64,000 nt of DNA from Oryzomicrobium sp. (GTDB lineage Bacteria > Pseudomonadota > Gammaproteobacteria > Burkholderiales > Rhodocyclaceae). A program made the position numbers and the translations under genes. Every line of letters starts with the position of its first letter. Position 1 is the stretch's first letter. Shown here piece by piece: positions 317-5,668 of the stretch. The stretch lies in NCBI RefSeq assembly GCF_021287045.1, contig NZ_JAJTBG010000004.1, forward strand, positions 1 through 64,000. Reading direction: 5' to 3'. Below the pieces are notes generated by a model. The model did not search any database. It worked only from the letters and a program-made list of their open reading frames with translations, and was not told the DNA's origin.

Positions 317-1783
317 TTGCCCTCCCGTCCCTCCGTTCCCCGCCGCCGCCTCGTCGCCCCGTCGTTCCGCACCCTGCTGACGGTGGCCTTTCTTCTGGCG
401 GCCTTGCCCCTGGTCGGCGCCCTGGTGGAGAGCGTCACCGGCCTGGAGCGGTTGTCCGGCGAAGCCCGCCAGGCGGTCACCCAGGCCGCCGCCGGCGCCC
501 GGGCCAGCCGGCAGCTGGCGGACCAGGCCCTGACCCTGGAGCGCATCGCCCGGCAGGTGGAAATCCTCGCCGACGCGAGCCTGATCGACGATTACAGCAC
601 GGTGCGCCAGCGCTTCAAGGCCACCTCCAGCGAACTGGCCCTGCTGCCCCTGTCCGAGGACCAACTGGCCACCCTCAACCGGGCGGTGGAAAGCGAGGAG
701 GCCCTGTTCGCCCGCCTGTCCGGCGCGGCCCGGGAAGGCACCCGCATGGCCGGCCTGGCCGAGGGCTACCGCAGCCTGTCGGACAGCGCCACCCGGCTCC
801 TGGCGGCGAGCAACGAGATCAACGACCGGGAAGTGACCCGTCTCGCCACCCTGGCCGCCGACACCGAGCGCCAGCTGTGGTGGCGCCTCACCGCCATGAT
901 CGGCCTGTCCCTTACCGGCGCGGTGCTGGCCTCCTGGCTGGTGGCCCGTCCCCTGAAAGCCCTGGACCGGGCGGTGCGTCGCCTGGGGGAGGGGGATTTT
1001 TCCCGGCCGGTGGCGGTGAGCGGCCCCGCCGACTTCGAGGAGCTGGGCCGCCGCCTGGAATGGACCCGGCAGCGCCTGGCCGACCTGGAAGACCAGAAGC
1101 AGCGCCTGCTGCGCCACGTCTCCCACGAACTGAAAACGCCCCTCACCGCCCTGCGCGAGGGCGCGGCCCTGCTCAAGGAGGGCGCCCTGGGCGATCTCAG
1201 CCCGGCCCAGGGGGAGGTGGTGGGCATCCTGGACGACCAGGCCCGTCAACTCCAGGCCCTGATCGAGCGTTTTCTCGACTACCAGCGCGCCCTCCAGGAC
1301 CTGGGGCGGGTCGAACTGATCCCCCTCGACCTGGCGGAACCCCTGCGGACGGCGGTGGATGCCCAGCGCCTGGCCGCCCAGGCCCGGGGCGTCGGCATCG
1401 CGGTGGCGGCCCCGGCGGCCCTGCGGGTGCGGGGCGACGCGGACAAGCTGGCCACGGTGATGGACAACCTGCTTTCCAACGCGGTCAAGTATTCCCCCGA
1501 AGGCGGCCAGGTTGCGGTGTGGCTCGCCGCAGAGGACGGCGCCGCCGTGCTGGAGGTCTGCGACCAGGGTCCGGGCATCGCGCCCGAGGCCCGGGACCAG
1601 GTCTTCCAGTGGTTCTACCGTGGCGCGCCGGGACATTCGGCCCTGGCCGGTTCGGGGCTCGGCCTGGCCATCGCCCGGGAGCTGGCCGAAGCCCAGGGCG
1701 GCCGCCTGACCCTGGAGGACGGGGCCGACCCGGACTACCCCGGCGCCGCCTTCCGCCTGACTTTGCCCTTGCTGGCCGATTGA
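317..1783 (+). CDS. glrK: Sensor histidine kinase, GlrK/QseE-like
   Basis: Membrane sensor kinase of 488 residues. An N-terminal membrane segment (about residues 14-36) is followed by a helical periplasmic sensor region, a second membrane segment (about 193-213), a HAMP linker, a HisKA domain with the phosphoacceptor His270 in SHELKTPLTALREGAALL, and a HATPase domain with N box (DNLLSNAVKYS), G1 (DQGPGIAPEARDQVF) and G2 (GSGLGLAIAREL). The ELKTPL-REGAALL pattern and the following lipoprotein and sigma-54 regulator genes match the glrK-qseG-glrR operon of enterobacteria. The only in-frame start near the expected N-terminus is TTG at 317 without a clear ribosome binding site, so the start is uncertain. 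Confidence 0.85.
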   Translation: MPSRPSVPRRRLVAPSFRTLLTVAFLLAALPLVGALVESVTGLERLSGEARQAVTQAAAGARASRQLADQALTLERIARQVEILADASLIDDYSTVRQRFKATSSELALLPLSEDQLATLNRAVESEEALFARLSGAAREGTRMAGLAEGYRSLSDSATRLLAASNEINDREVTRLATLAADTERQLWWRLTAMIGLSLTGAVLASWLVARPLKALDRAVRRLGEGDFSRPVAVSGPADFEELGRRLEWTRQRLADLEDQKQRLLRHVSHELKTPLTALREGAALLKEGALGDLSPAQGEVVGILDDQARQLQALIERFLDYQRALQDLGRVELIPLDLAEPLRTAVDAQRLAAQARGVGIAVAAPAALRVRGDADKLATVMDNLLSNAVKYSPEGGQVAVWLAAEDGAAVLEVCDQGPGIAPEARDQVFQWFYRGAPGHSALAGSGLGLAIARELAEAQGGRLTLEDGADPDYPGAAFRLTLPLLAD

Positions 1784-1814: not shown

Positions 1815-2324
1815 ATGAAAGACGCAACGATGATCCATTTCGACCCAACCGCGGCCCGGCGCTGGCTGCCCCGCCTGGCCCTGATCGCCCTGCTGCCCCT
1901 GGCGGCCTGCCAAAGCCTGCCGCCCCCCGCCAGCATGACCACCATCCCCGGCACCGAGGGTGCCCGGGTGCTGGACGCCCTGGCCCTGGGGCAGCGCGCC
2001 GCCCAGGCCGGCGGCGACGAGCAAAAGCGCGAGCTGACCCACGCCCAGCAGGCCTACGGTCGGGACAAGAGCCTGGAAAACCGCCTCAACCTGGCCACCC
2101 TGCTGGCCCTGCCCACGCCGACGCTGGGGGACGACGCCCGGGCCATCGCCCTGCTCGAACCGGTGGCCGGCGGCACCCCGGGGCCGGCCCGGGACTACGC
2201 CGGCTATCTGCTCGCCCAGTTGCGCGAGCGGGTGCGCGAGACCAAGTCATCCCGGCAGTTGAAGGACCAGGTGGATGCCCTGAAATCCCTGGAGCGCCAG
2301 TTCATCGAACGGGGAGGGCGCTGA
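1815..2324 (+). CDS. qseG: QseG-like outer-membrane lipoprotein
   Basis: Small lipoprotein of 169 residues. The N-terminal signal ends in a lipobox (LPLAAC, Cys32), so the mature protein should be lipid-anchored. The rest is charged and helical, without a catalytic motif. In enterobacteria QseG sits between the kinase and regulator genes and interacts with the kinase; the function here is inferred from position and size because sequence similarity in this family is low. It lies 31 bp after the kinase gene and 1 bp before the regulator gene, so the three are certainly one operon. ATG at 1830 is an alternative start. Confidence 0.7.
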   Translation: MKDATMIHFDPTAARRWLPRLALIALLPLAACQSLPPPASMTTIPGTEGARVLDALALGQRAAQAGGDEQKRELTHAQQAYGRDKSLENRLNLATLLALPTPTLGDDARAIALLEPVAGGTPGPARDYAGYLLAQLRERVRETKSSRQLKDQVDALKSLERQFIERGGR

Positions 2325-2325
2325 C

Positions 2326-3714
2326 ATGGCCGCTGCCCCGTCCTCGTCCCCATCCAAGGCCCTGGCCGTGCCCGACATCCTGGTGGTGGACGACGAGCCG
2401 GACCTGCTGCGCCTGATCGGCCTGCGCCTGACCGCCGCCGGCTACACGGTCCAGTCCGCCGCCAGCGGCGAGGCCGCCCTGGCCCTGTTCGACGCCCATG
2501 CCGGCGCCCGGCCCCGGCTGGTGGTGACCGACCTGAAGATGGGCGGCATGGACGGCCTGGCCCTGTTCGACGCCCTGCAAAAGCGCGCCCCGGGCCTGCC
2601 GGTGATCGTGCTCACCGCCCACGGCACCATCCCCGACGCGGTGGAGGCGGTGCAGCGCGGCGTCTTCGGCTTCATCCCCAAGCCCTTCGAGGGCTCCACC
2701 CTGCTCGCCGAGGTGGAGCGGGCCCTGGCCCTGTCGGCCTTGCCGCCGGCCGCCGCCGGAGGAGGGGACTGGCGCGAGGGCATCATCGCCGTGGGCCCGG
2801 CCATGCGCACGGTGCTGGAGCGGGCCGAACTGGTGGCCGCCACCGACGCCCCGGTGCTGGTGCTGGGCGCCAGCGGCAGCGGCAAGGAAGTGCTGGCCCA
2901 GGCCATCCACCGGGCCGGCCCCCGGGCGGCCCGGCCCTTCGTCGCCATCAACTGCGCGGCGATCCCCGAGCACCTGCTCGAATCCGAACTGTTCGGCCAC
3001 CGCAAGGGCGCCTTCACCGGCGCCGCCTACGACCACAAGGGCCTGTTCCAGCAGGCCGAGGGCGGCACCGTCTTTCTCGACGAGATCGGCGACATGCCCC
3101 TCATCCTCCAGGCCAAGCTGCTGCGTGTGTTGCAGGAGCGGGAGGTGCGCCCGGTGGGGGCCGCCGCCTCGGTGCCGGTGGATGTGCGGGTGATTTCCGC
3201 CACCCACCGCAACCTGGAGCAGGCCATCGCCGAGGGGCGCTTCCGCGAGGACCTCTATTACCGCCTCAACGTGGTGTCCCTGGTCCTGCCCCTGCTTTCC
3301 GAGCGGCGCGAGGACATCCCGGCCCTGGCGCGCCACTTCCTGCAACAGGCGGCGCAGCGCTACGGCCGCCCGGTGAGCGGCTTTGCCCCGGAGGCCCTGG
3401 AGTTGCTGGTGGCCGCCCCTTGGCCGGGCAACGTGCGCCAGTTGCAGAACGCGGTGGCCCAGGCCGTGGCTCTGACGCCCTCCGGCGTGGTGCCGGCGGA
3501 ACGGGTGCGGGAGGCCCTGCGCGACGAGCCGGTGGCCCTGACCCCCCTGGACGAGGCCAAGCTGGCCTTCGAGCGGGACTACCTGGTGCGCCTGCTCAAG
3601 CTCACCGCCGGCAACGTCACCCAGGCCGCCCGCCTGGCCGAGCGCAACCGCACCGAGTTCTACCGGCTGCTGGAACGCCACAGCCTGGACCCCAAGCACT
3701 TCAAGGACGCCTGA
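2326..3714 (+). CDS. glrR: Sigma-54-dependent response regulator, GlrR/QseF-like
   Basis: Sigma-54 activator of 462 residues. It has a receiver domain (about 17-130; acidic pocket VVDDEPD, phosphoacceptor Asp in VVTDLKMGGMDG, conserved Lys in IPKPFEG) and an AAA+ domain (about 150-385) with Walker A (GASGSGKE, about 182-189), the sigma-54 contact loop GAFTGA (about 228-233), Walker B (GGTVFLDEIGDM) and an arginine-finger region. A C-terminal Fis-type helix-turn-helix (NVTQAARLAERNRTEFYRLL) ends the protein. Phosphorylated by the adjacent kinase, it should bind upstream sites and open sigma-54 promoters. The next intergenic region carries a site matching the known GlrR recognition pattern and a sigma-54 promoter. 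Confidence 0.92.
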   Translation: MAAAPSSSPSKALAVPDILVVDDEPDLLRLIGLRLTAAGYTVQSAASGEAALALFDAHAGARPRLVVTDLKMGGMDGLALFDALQKRAPGLPVIVLTAHGTIPDAVEAVQRGVFGFIPKPFEGSTLLAEVERALALSALPPAAAGGGDWREGIIAVGPAMRTVLERAELVAATDAPVLVLGASGSGKEVLAQAIHRAGPRAARPFVAINCAAIPEHLLESELFGHRKGAFTGAAYDHKGLFQQAEGGTVFLDEIGDMPLILQAKLLRVLQEREVRPVGAAASVPVDVRVISATHRNLEQAIAEGRFREDLYYRLNVVSLVLPLLSERREDIPALARHFLQQAAQRYGRPVSGFAPEALELLVAAPWPGNVRQLQNAVAQAVALTPSGVVPAERVREALRDEPVALTPLDEAKLAFERDYLVRLLKLTAGNVTQAARLAERNRTEFYRLLERHSLDPKHFKDA

Positions 3715-3818
3715 GCCGGCCGGGGCCTGGGCCGGCACCTCGCCGGCCTAAGCCTGCCCGCACCTATCCGCACCTGTCCGACCTTCTCTGCGCTGGCATG
3801 GGCTTGTACGGGCCGAAT

Positions 3819-3855
3819 CCGCCTGCGGCCGGCCGGTGTCGTGGCGGGGTTTTTT
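3819..3855 (+). terminator. Possible terminator after glrR
   Basis: Arms CCGCC (3819-3823) and GGCGG (3843-3847) enclose a GC-rich interior that can fold further, followed by a run of six T (3850-3855). The outer arms are only five base pairs, so the call is weak, but it is correctly placed about 100 bp after the operon stop. Confidence 0.4.
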
Positions 3856-3860
3856 AGGAC

Positions 3861-3971
3861 GATGTATTAATAAAATTCAAGTAACCGGCCGATGCAAAAG
3901 CAAAGGTCCGCGCCAGTTATCGACTTTGGCGCAACGCCTTCCTGAATGTATTAAAAAAATTCAAGTATCGG
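3861..3971. repeat. Dispersed 111-bp intergenic element, copy A
   Basis: An AT-ended, GC-centred segment that aligns without gaps to 53184-53294; by eye 76 of 111 positions agree. Both start with GATGTATTAATAAAATT and end with GTATCGG, and share the central block CGCGCCAGTT. Within copy A the two AT-rich ends are direct repeats of 21 bp (3863-3883 and 3947-3967) differing at one base. No coding potential. It lies between the glrR stop and the GlrR-type sites. Confidence 0.65.
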
Positions 3972-4067
3972 GCGCGGAAGCCCCGGCATCCCGGTAGAAA
4001 GTTCGGGGCCGCCGGCCCCGGTTCGCGTATTGGAAAAACGGCGGGGCGGTACTGGCTCCGGGAATGC

Positions 4068-4085
4068 CGTCGGGACTGGACGACA
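4068..4085. promoter_or_regulatory. Second, imperfect GlrR-type site
   Basis: CGTC, ten bases, GACA: one mismatch from the TGTC-N10-GACA pattern of GlrR. It lies 79 bp upstream of the perfect site. Paired activator sites upstream of a sigma-54 promoter are usual for this regulator family. Confidence 0.45.
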
Positions 4086-4146
4086 GGTTGTTTTTCCAGG
4101 CGGAACAATGGCTTGCCGGCGTTTTCTCATGCCGGCTGTTTCCAGG

Positions 4147-4164
4147 TGTCGTCCCGGCCCGACA
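4147..4164. promoter_or_regulatory. GlrR binding site TGTC-N10-GACA
   Basis: TGTC at 4147-4150 and GACA at 4161-4164, separated by exactly ten bases. This is the recognition pattern described for GlrR (QseF) at enterobacterial glmY. It lies about 110-130 bp upstream of a canonical sigma-54 promoter, a normal enhancer distance, and 430 bp downstream of glrR itself. Confidence 0.7.
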
Positions 4165-4273
4165 GGTTTGCTGGGCGCAGGTGGGCTGCGGGCCTCGCCA
4201 GGGTCTTGTCCGTTCGGCCTGTTGTCATGCAGGTAATTGATTCATCGCGGTTTTCTCCATTGCGGCAGCGGCT

Positions 4274-4288
4274 TGGCACGGCTGTTGC
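4274..4288 (+). promoter_or_regulatory. Sigma-54 (RpoN) promoter
   Basis: TGGCACG (4274-4280), four bases, TTGC (4285-4288): an exact fit to the -24/-12 consensus TGGCACG-N4-TTGC. Transcription would start near 4300, about 40 bp before the glycine-zipper gene at 4339. With the GlrR-type sites upstream, this is probably a GlrR-activated promoter. Confidence 0.8.
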
Positions 4289-4338
4289 GATGTAGGGAGC
4301 AACGGTGCCTGTTCGGTACCGACCCTGGAGAAAACAAC

Positions 4339-4764
4339 ATGTCTCGCTCTCGTTTCCTGCTCCCCGCCCTGGTGGCCGGCCTGGCCGCCGCCCTGCTGGG
4401 TGGCGCGACCCCGGCTCTGGCCTACGGCGGCGGCGAAGCCGTCCTGGGTGGTGCCATCGGCGGCGCCGCCGGGGCCGCCGTCGGTTCGGCGGTCGGCGGC
4501 CGCAACGGCGCCATCGTCGGTGGCGCCCTGGGCGCGGCCACCGGCGTGGTCGTCGCCTCGTCTCCGGCGCCTTATTACGCGCCGCCGCCCCGGCCGGCCT
4601 ACGTCTATGCCCCGCCGCCCCCGGTGGTCTATGCACCGCCTCCGGCGCCGGTCTATGTGGTGCCGAGCTACGGCCGTCCCGTCTATGCGCCTTACGGCTA
4701 CTACGGCCCCCCGGGGCACTGGGGGCGCGAATGGCGCCATCACCGCCACTGGGATCGGGACTGA
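4339..4764 (+). CDS. Glycine-zipper exported protein with Pro/Tyr-rich tail
   Basis: Protein of 141 residues. A signal peptide (to about residue 28, ALA cleavage context) is followed by a Gly/Ala-rich stretch (about 30-75) with repeated GxxxG patterns (GGAIGGAAGAAVGSAVGG), the hallmark of glycine-zipper membrane-inserting segments. A low-complexity tail rich in Pro and Tyr (PYYAPPPRPAYVYAPPPP) follows, and the C-terminus is basic with many His and Trp. ATG at 4339 is chosen because GGAG lies 9 bp upstream and the signal peptide begins there; the frame is open further upstream but would run through the promoter. Likely an envelope protein made under GlrR/sigma-54 control; molecular function unknown. 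Confidence 0.8.
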   Translation: MSRSRFLLPALVAGLAAALLGGATPALAYGGGEAVLGGAIGGAAGAAVGSAVGGRNGAIVGGALGAATGVVVASSPAPYYAPPPRPAYVYAPPPPVVYAPPPAPVYVVPSYGRPVYAPYGYYGPPGHWGREWRHHRHWDRD

Positions 4765-4807: not shown

Positions 4808-5572
4808 ATGAACGCTTCCCCTGCCATCACTCCGACTTCCCTGGCTGCCGAGCAGCCTGCCAGCGCCGCTCCCGCCGCCAAGCCCCGCCTGCATCCGTTG
4901 CTCACCGCGGCGGCGGTGTCCGTCACCGTGTTCAGCCTGCTCGGCATCGCCGCAGTGACCGGCCTGCTGCCCCATGCCCAATCCACGGCGCCCTCCAGCC
5001 AGAGCGCCGCCGCCGAGGGGGCCGCCAAGGCCCTGATGTCCCCGGACGGGGCGTCCGGCCCGGCGCCGGCCGCTGCCACGGGCGGCCAGGCCGCTGCGCC
5101 TGTTGCACCATCTGAAACCCGGCCGGTGGCAGCGCCGCGCAGCCATCGCCAGGCGCCCTTGCAGGTCCGCTCCGGCGCGGGCGCCCAGCCCATGGCCAGC
5201 GCGGCCGAGGGCGCTCCGGCGGCTTCGGCTTCCGTCTGCGCCAGTTGCGGCGTGGTGGAGTCGGTGCGCGCCGTCGAGGTGGAAGGCAGCGGCAGCGGCC
5301 TGGGGGCTGTGGCCGGCGGCGTGACCGGCGGCCTGGTGGGCAACCAGATGGGCAACGGCAACGGCCGTACCGTCATGACCCTGCTGGGCGCGGTGGGCGG
5401 TGCCTTTGCCGGCAACGCCATCGAGAAGAACGTGCGCAAGGACACCGTGTACCGCATCACGGTGCGCATGGACGACGGTTCCTACCGCACCGTGTCCCAG
5501 TCCCACGTGCCGGCGGTGGCCGTGGGCGACAAGGTGAAGGTGATCAACGGCAGCGTGTCCGCCCGCTCCTGA
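4808..5572 (+). CDS. Glycine-zipper 2TM domain envelope protein (SlyB/17-kDa antigen type)
   Basis: Protein of 254 residues. A membrane anchor near residues 30-57 is followed by a long Ala/Pro/Ser-rich linker, then CASCGVVESVRAVEVEG (about residue 140) leading into the glycine-zipper 2TM domain (GSGLGAVAGGVTGGLVGNQ and GRTVMTLLGAVGGAFAGN). The C-terminal part (YRITVRMDDGSYRTVSQ) is the usual beta-rich end of the SlyB/Rickettsia 17-kDa family. Start ATG at 4808 has an AGGAG-type ribosome binding site. It lies 43 bp after the previous glycine-zipper gene with no visible promoter between them, so both probably share the sigma-54 promoter. Confidence 0.85.
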   Translation: MNASPAITPTSLAAEQPASAAPAAKPRLHPLLTAAAVSVTVFSLLGIAAVTGLLPHAQSTAPSSQSAAAEGAAKALMSPDGASGPAPAAATGGQAAAPVAPSETRPVAAPRSHRQAPLQVRSGAGAQPMASAAEGAPAASASVCASCGVVESVRAVEVEGSGSGLGAVAGGVTGGLVGNQMGNGNGRTVMTLLGAVGGAFAGNAIEKNVRKDTVYRITVRMDDGSYRTVSQSHVPAVAVGDKVKVINGSVSARS

Positions 5573-5632: not shown

Positions 5633-5668
5633 CCCGGCGCTTCGCTTTGCGACGCCGGGTTATTTTTT
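5633..5668 (+). terminator. Rho-independent terminator
   Basis: Perfect 7-bp stem CCCGGCG (5633-5639) / CGCCGGG (5653-5659) followed by a T-rich run (5660-5668). It lies 60 bp after the glycine-zipper gene stop and closes that transcription unit. Confidence 0.75.

Follow-up and report, generated by a model that had tools for sequence, protein, structure and literature searches.

The closest described systems are those of enterobacteria, in which QseF (GlrR) is reported to bind TGTN12ACA sites together with IHF at glmY, to use such promoters for the small RNA glmY, and to control rpoE (PMC6075780). The qseEGF cluster has also been described as widespread in Betaproteobacteria and is known in Acidithiobacillia (PMC12691602; also PMC8895600 and PMC12194929), and sigma-54 has been proposed as a controller of the bacterial exterior, in an envelope thesis that lists a QseF-like activator class (Francke 2011, PMC3162934). 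Neither “bactofilin” nor “zipper” occurs in the main text of PMC3162934, a term search of PMC12316311 gave no match, and a term search in the main text of the Paraburkholderia phymatum RpoN transcriptome paper gave no BON domain, bactofilin or glycine-zipper, which is neutral either way (PMC5979394). Among the papers listed by searches of an open-licence PMC library, which lacks most subscription papers, we found no targets of GlrKR (QseEF) in Betaproteobacteria and no report of GlrR (QseF) control of glycine-zipper, BON or bactofilin genes, in keeping with the first-pass annotation, which knew of no description of such a regulon branch. Here, we analysed a 64-kb window (the whole stretch of 64,000 nucleotides) in which a region downstream of glrR is very probably a control switch by which GlrR turns on two adjoining envelope genes.

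The glrR locus and its predicted control region

The window contains three genes in the kinase–lipoprotein–regulator order of QseEGF (Table 1). In one pairwise alignment, the kinase has Arg opposite both R70 and R73 of its E. coli counterpart, two positions reported to contact QseG (PMC12691602). The protein encoded at 1815..2324 had no Pfam or NCBIfam match and no BLAST match to E. coli QseG, and tblastn homologues of its gene were found in the equivalent place in several relatives. The regulator displays a receiver, a sigma-54 AAA domain and a GlrR-type DNA-binding end. Its best score among the NCBIfam models listed was to GlrR (587.8 bits; next ntrC, 410), and since this falls under the model cut-off of 763 we do not claim it as an NCBIfam equivalog. 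GlrR orthology rests on gene order and on a search of this genome with E. coli GlrR, for which the 2326 gene was the best match (E 2e-153; next 1.5e-89). The DNA-binding end reads GNVTQAARLAERNRTEFYRLL here vs GNVTHAARMAGRNRTEFYKLL in E. coli GlrR, including a DNA-binding helix RNRTEFYRLL vs RNRTEFYKLL.

Table 1. Coordinates of the glrKR genes, the predicted control elements and the genes behind them in the window
Feature	Position	Strand	Evidence
glrK (qseE), sensor histidine kinase	317..1783	+	Pfam HAMP, HisKA, HATPase_c; 33% identity to E. coli GlrK, 487 aa, E 8e-69
qseG-like lipoprotein gene, between glrK and glrR	1815..2324	+	Lipobox LAAC by eye; position
glrR (qseF), sigma-54 activator response regulator	2326..3714	+	Best NCBIfam model GlrR
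UAS1, distal putative GlrR site	4068..4085	+	CGTCGGGACTGGACGACA; 1 mismatch to TGTC-N10-GACA
UAS2, proximal putative GlrR site	4147..4164	+	TGTCGTCCCGGCCCGACA; 0 mismatches to TGTC-N10-GACA
IHF-like site	4230..4242	+	CAGGTAATTGATT; one mismatch to YAANNNNTTGATW; start 44 bp before promoter
Predicted sigma-54 promoter	4274..4288	+	TGGCACGGCTGTTGC; 0 mismatches to TGGCACG-N4-TTGC
GZ1, secreted YMGG-like glycine-zipper protein, Tyr/Pro-rich tail	4339..4764	+	Pfam Gly-zipper_YMGG E 1.3e-4, below gathering score
GZ2, SlyB-like glycine-zipper protein	4808..5572	+	Pfam Rick_17kDa_Anti 38.3 bits; SlyB 7ojf E 1e-10, residues 144-232
Likely terminator of GZ1-GZ2 operon	5633..5668	+	GC stem, ~12-nt loop, T run; by eye

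Between glrR and the gene at 4339 lie 624 bp without a clear gene. The first-pass annotation had placed here one exact and one single-mismatch TGTC-N10-GACA site and an exact sigma-54 promoter, directly downstream of glrK-qseG-glrR; all three sequences are found where it had read them, the gene order is present with a regulator supported as GlrR, and the last promoter base (4288) does lie 51 bp before the ATG of the glycine-zipper gene. The 64-kb window has no other exact UAS and no second exact sigma-54 site, while at up to one mismatch we counted 25 UAS against 14.9 expected and 1 sigma-54 site against 2.1 expected. Given that such single-window counts are weak and unstriking, the case was instead built on comparison.

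Across the whole genome, the exact UAS occurs 43 times (25 for a reversed control), and a perfect sigma-54 site lies within 160 bp of two of these 43, namely at the window locus and ahead of a bactofilin gene; another (L007) is accompanied by a sigma-54 site with 2 mismatches, and seven by 3-mismatch sites only. Starting from the 19 strong sigma-54 sites of the genome, a UAS with at most one mismatch is found upstream of the same two, the window promoter and that of the bactofilin gene, and a third (L117) has a UAS match with 2 mismatches. In a second genome of the same genus (G042), both UAS and all 15 promoter letters are retained, as is a TTGAT lying past UAS2 and ahead of the promoter, while the spacers have diverged; there it is UAS1 that is exact (TGTCGGGGCTAAACGACA) and UAS2 that holds the mismatch, the reverse of the window. 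The glrR–UAS1 gap (3736-4065) is ~315 bp longer than in G042, through insertion here or loss there, and includes two 28-nt direct repeats (3862-3889 and 3946-3973, 89% alike, ATGTATTAATAAAATTCAAGTA).

The promoter is followed by two glycine-zipper genes, GZ1 and GZ2. GZ2 has the glycine-zipper 2TM domain followed by a SlyB-like region that is typical of the SlyB family, but where SlyB has a lipobox, its N-terminus is a membrane helix without lipobox cysteine, accompanied by a CASCG (CxxCG) motif (all by eye), and it is therefore named SlyB-like rather than SlyB. The likely terminator at 5633-5668 was absent from a hairpin scan that allowed loops of at most 8.

Conservation, operator geometry and co-occurrence with GlrR

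A search with the window GlrR identified matches at E <= 1e-100 in 60 of 101 genomes of the family, of which 44 at E <= 1e-154, together with two clear partial matches, were taken as bearing GlrR (46 genomes). Within 460 nt past the glrR stop, 45 orthologue loci (L060 had no downstream sequence and was left out) included 21 with an exact UAS, 27 with a sigma-54 site at up to one mismatch, and 19 with both, vs 2.4%, 1.4% and 0.4%, respectively, of 8288 background windows. Neither an exact UAS nor such a sigma-54 site was found in the same 460 nt at nine distant homologues. We then defined an element as a UAS with at most one mismatch followed at 50-115 bp by a sigma-54 site with at most two, downstream of glrR. 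This element was detected at 65 of 125 loci of GlrR-family genes from the family, the order and named genomes, the order and named loci being part of the matches found and two loci (L060 and L202) being excluded as too short. By contrast, controls on the same 125 loci yielded 0 (reverse complement), 3 (reversed UAS) and 0 (inside glrR).

By set, the element was present at 30/45 family orthologue loci, 25/42 order loci, 10/29 named loci and 0/9 distant homologues, and thus absent at 15, 17, 19 and 9, respectively; one of the nine distant homologues (L093) is a truncated GlrR that was scored as GlrR-positive in the bactofilin comparison. Named loci with the element came from Methylophilaceae, Herbaspirillum, Rubrivivax, Chitinimonas, Janthinobacterium, Duganella and Dechloromonas, and one locus each from Gammaproteobacteria, Desulfobulbaceae and Nitrospirota displayed it as well, while it was not found at the Halomonas, Kushneria, Neptuniibacter and enterobacterial glrR loci examined. 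Separately, TGTCT...AGACA palindromes are seen near glrR in L185, L202 and L130, possibly reflecting a shift of GlrR specificity.

The first-pass annotation had proposed that the local targets are a pair of glycine-zipper envelope proteins, and had named a lack of site conservation beside the orthologous gene as what would refute this. The sites and promoter recur downstream of glrR in the family and the order, which supports that proposal at the sequence level, and they are kept beside the orthologous gene: among 30 loci picked by GZ2 protein similarity from many more matches and judged by one rule, the element was found at 7/7 glrR-linked SlyB-like genes vs 1/23 unlinked paralogues. The UAS of this single unlinked case (L320, G097:C13) reads TGTCAGGCTTTGCTGACA and lacks the G/C refinement described below, so that its element is perhaps due to chance. 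The 4339 gene, considered as the key conserved target, was borne out only in part: GZ1-like genes beside glrR were observed in the window's own genus and in a few other relatives, whereas a GZ2-type gene lies downstream of glrR at 16/46 family loci, making the 4808 gene the more widely kept of the two.

Alignment of the proximal sites yielded TGTCGCC-N4-GGCGACA, although the query had asked only for TGTC and GACA. For the analyses of spacing and IHF, one repeat within the 65 loci (L182, identical to L084) was removed, leaving 64. Distances between UAS2 and the sigma-54 site fall into clusters of ~52 (51-53), 64 (61-67), 75 (72-78), 85 (83-88), 95 (93-96) and 107 (105-109) bp, with an 11-bp periodicity (Rayleigh p ~2e-19 for 89 distinct promoters, a test that omits three bactofilin spacings above 115 bp, namely 121, 140 and 142) that was recovered separately for glrR-linked (n=64, p 4e-13) and bactofilin promoters (n=25, p 3e-7). 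Clustering at ~11 bp is what would be expected if the activator must occupy one face of the DNA. An IHF-like site (at most one mismatch) is present in 35/64 glrR-linked spacers vs 2.9 in shuffles, most often 30-33 bp ahead of the promoter. The window itself is unusual among the compared promoters in its spacings, with 79 bp between the two UAS and 109 bp from UAS2 to the promoter, which falls in the longest cluster (107 bp in G042), and its IHF-like site is likewise offset from the usual ~30-33 bp.

To look at this arrangement independently of glrR, we searched for an exact composite pattern (UAS TGTCG-N8-CGACA, 57-87 bp, TGGCAYR-N5-TGC). This genome and G042 have no match because their spacings exceed the range of the pattern. 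In an order-wide sample, 34/300 genomes matched (control, 0), and GlrR was found in 34/34 of these vs 120/300 overall (p 1e-15); in a class-wide sample, 14/369 matched (control, 2), with GlrR in 13/14 vs 92/369 (p 8e-8); and in the family, 34/199 matched (control, 1), of which the 16 among the 101 genomes with GlrR data included 15 with GlrR vs 46/101 (p 2e-5), all p values overstating independence because genomes share ancestry. The order-sample matches came from 24 genera and the class-sample matches from 14, with one matching genome (G115) common to both samples. A composite without any GlrR match was seen in two exceptions, G090, a family genome that is 86% complete, and G553 of the class sample. 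At the level of sequence, the composite element is thus a marker of GlrR-bearing genomes.

Genes behind GlrR-type promoters

Putative targets were assigned from the first open reading frame 18-170 nt from each glrR-linked promoter, a rough reading based on crude motifs, with Pfam applied to eight representatives only. Of 62 first ORFs called, 49 could be given a motif class: GZ2-like (17), other glycine zipper (10), BON (12), EF-hand (6), EF-hand plus BON (3) and bactofilin (1). The other 13 fell outside these classes, including one (L057) that is BON by Pfam. In Dechloromonas denitrificans, a member of the same family, the gene linked to glrR is of BON type by motif. Hence, the first gene often appears to encode a small envelope protein (48/62), whether a SlyB-like or OsmB-/YMGG-like glycine zipper, a BON protein, an EF-hand protein or a combination of the latter two. 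The E. coli roles of BON proteins and of glycine zippers of the SlyB and OsmB types lie in outer-membrane integrity or stress. The glycine-zipper pair is supported as the local target, and the predicted target set is wider than this pair, extending to BON, EF-hand, OsmB-like and bactofilin genes.

Bactofilin, a polymer used in cell shape, would be a second target, often unlinked to glrR, and in this genome too. Here, its gene (G000 C5:58614-59520; L102, L279) is preceded by a UAS pair 65 bp apart and a perfect sigma-54 promoter. When bactofilin loci were chosen by protein only, the upstream region had a UAS pair, a UAS plus sigma-54 site, or both of these at 29/35 loci in GlrR-bearing genomes vs 1/10 in GlrR-negative ones (p 5e-5), and two GlrR-negative loci (G066 and G080) showed a lone exact UAS. 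Where a pair could be scored (search range 60-90 bp), the two UAS were 65-68 bp apart in 25/25 bactofilin loci. In the 35 GlrR-bearing genomes, bactofilin lay within 11 kb of glrR in 17 and within 4 kb in 16, often on the glrK side. The 37 composite matches in the 199 family genomes included 17 before bactofilin (3 of these directly downstream of glrR) and 12 others linked to glrR, the remainder being 1 at an unlinked BON gene and 7 without assigned target.

Several further genes were observed behind such promoters. In other orders of the class, 5/16 composite matches lie before small secreted EF-hand-like proteins (by eye; L412, L413, L416, L420 and L421). At L410, L411 and also L137, the first gene encodes a small protein that we take to be a CsbD-like stress protein, with a SlyB-like gene behind it in L410 and L411. 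In L391, L392, L393 and L275, the gene after the GlrR-linked promoter encodes a large membrane glycosyltransferase, presumably resembling MdoH of periplasmic glucan synthesis, and at L395 a composite element stands ahead of another glycosyltransferase gene, which we assume to be WecG/TagA-like, with no GlrR match in the stretch examined.

Interpretation and comparison with known systems

The sequences themselves establish how the sites are arranged and conserved, their helical phasing and their co-occurrence with GlrR. The mechanism that we infer from them would start with GlrK phosphorylating GlrR, in partnership with the QseG-like lipoprotein at the outer membrane, through which a signal such as envelope stress is likely sensed. 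GlrR would bind both UAS upstream of 4274, IHF would bend the spacer, and GlrR would then drive the sigma-54 polymerase into the open complex, with the result that an envelope signal would switch on the GZ1-GZ2 operon. Likeness to glmY argues strongly for activation of GZ1-GZ2 by GlrR. Less firmly, the roles of related E. coli proteins suggest that the products may hold the envelope together under stress. Since the same kind of element precedes the bactofilin gene, GZ1-GZ2 and bactofilin would together form a small envelope regulon.

The palindromes could conceivably be bound by a different sigma-54 activator, as about a dozen other proteins of this genome contain a GlrR-like sigma-54-activator domain. 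This is improbable, however, given that the control region adjoins glrR, that composite and GlrR co-occur in 34/34, 13/14 and 15/16 genomes, and that the recognition helix is near-identical to that of GlrR from E. coli, where the same sites are found at its known target glmY. A second alternative accepts the promoter but makes its product a small RNA, for which enterobacteria are known to use such promoters (PMC6075780), with the glycine-zipper genes as bystanders. We consider it somewhat less probable still: only ~39 nt separate the inferred start site from the ATG, and 45/62 of the called first ORFs start 40-100 nt past the promoter (search 18-170 nt). A small RNA product was rejected on Rfam results, as no family was found in the window at gathering score and GlmY was not found in this genome; among 31 family genomes the GlmY family had one match, exactly at the Rfam cut-off of 33 bits, which may be chance (L277, G024 C26:47052-47213).

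As for chance resemblance in GC-rich DNA, the counts within the window alone are near expectation, yet cross-species conservation, the controls and the phasing of spacings all contradict it, and it was rejected as having next to no likelihood. Activation of the adjoining envelope genes by GlrR thus remains the preferred reading, and the recurrence of the element in relatives, including before bactofilin, points to a GlrR job unlike that in E. coli. Looking further back, GlrKR may be an old Pseudomonadota sigma-54 envelope-integrity system with primarily structural targets (SlyB- and OsmB-like glycine zippers, BON, EF-hand and bactofilin), the enterobacterial GlmY branch being a later specialisation, a scenario on which we are evenly divided. 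If GlrR acts as proposed, this would provide a concrete and testable regulon for GlrKR outside enterobacteria, a link between a stress system and a cell-shape polymer, bactofilin, and a sharp operator (TGTCGCC-N4-GGCGACA twice, an IHF-like site and sigma-54) usable for finding targets in other genomes.

Overall, the regulator and operator are known, and what is new is the proposed targets and the gene arrangement. E. coli rpoE resembles the present proposal in placing an envelope-stress function under sigma-54/QseF control (PMC6075780), but there control would pass via a sigma factor, whereas here it would act on structural envelope genes. E. coli glmY shares with the window the same UAS palindrome, a sigma-54-like site and a position adjoining glrK-qseG-glrR. 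Unlike the two UAS of the window, glmY has three, all exact, and two of them are 63 bp apart, compared with 65-68 bp for the bactofilin pairs; its IHF-type TAACTCATTGATT lies between those two UAS, whereas the IHF-like site of the window lies past UAS2, ahead of the promoter; and the glmY product is a small RNA encoded upstream of glrK, whereas the window promoter stands downstream of glrR and before protein genes. SlyB, for its part, is PhoPQ-controlled, and in these bacteria GlrR would, if the scenario of an old envelope-integrity system is true, itself directly control genes whose E. coli counterparts answer to RpoS, Rcs and PhoPQ.
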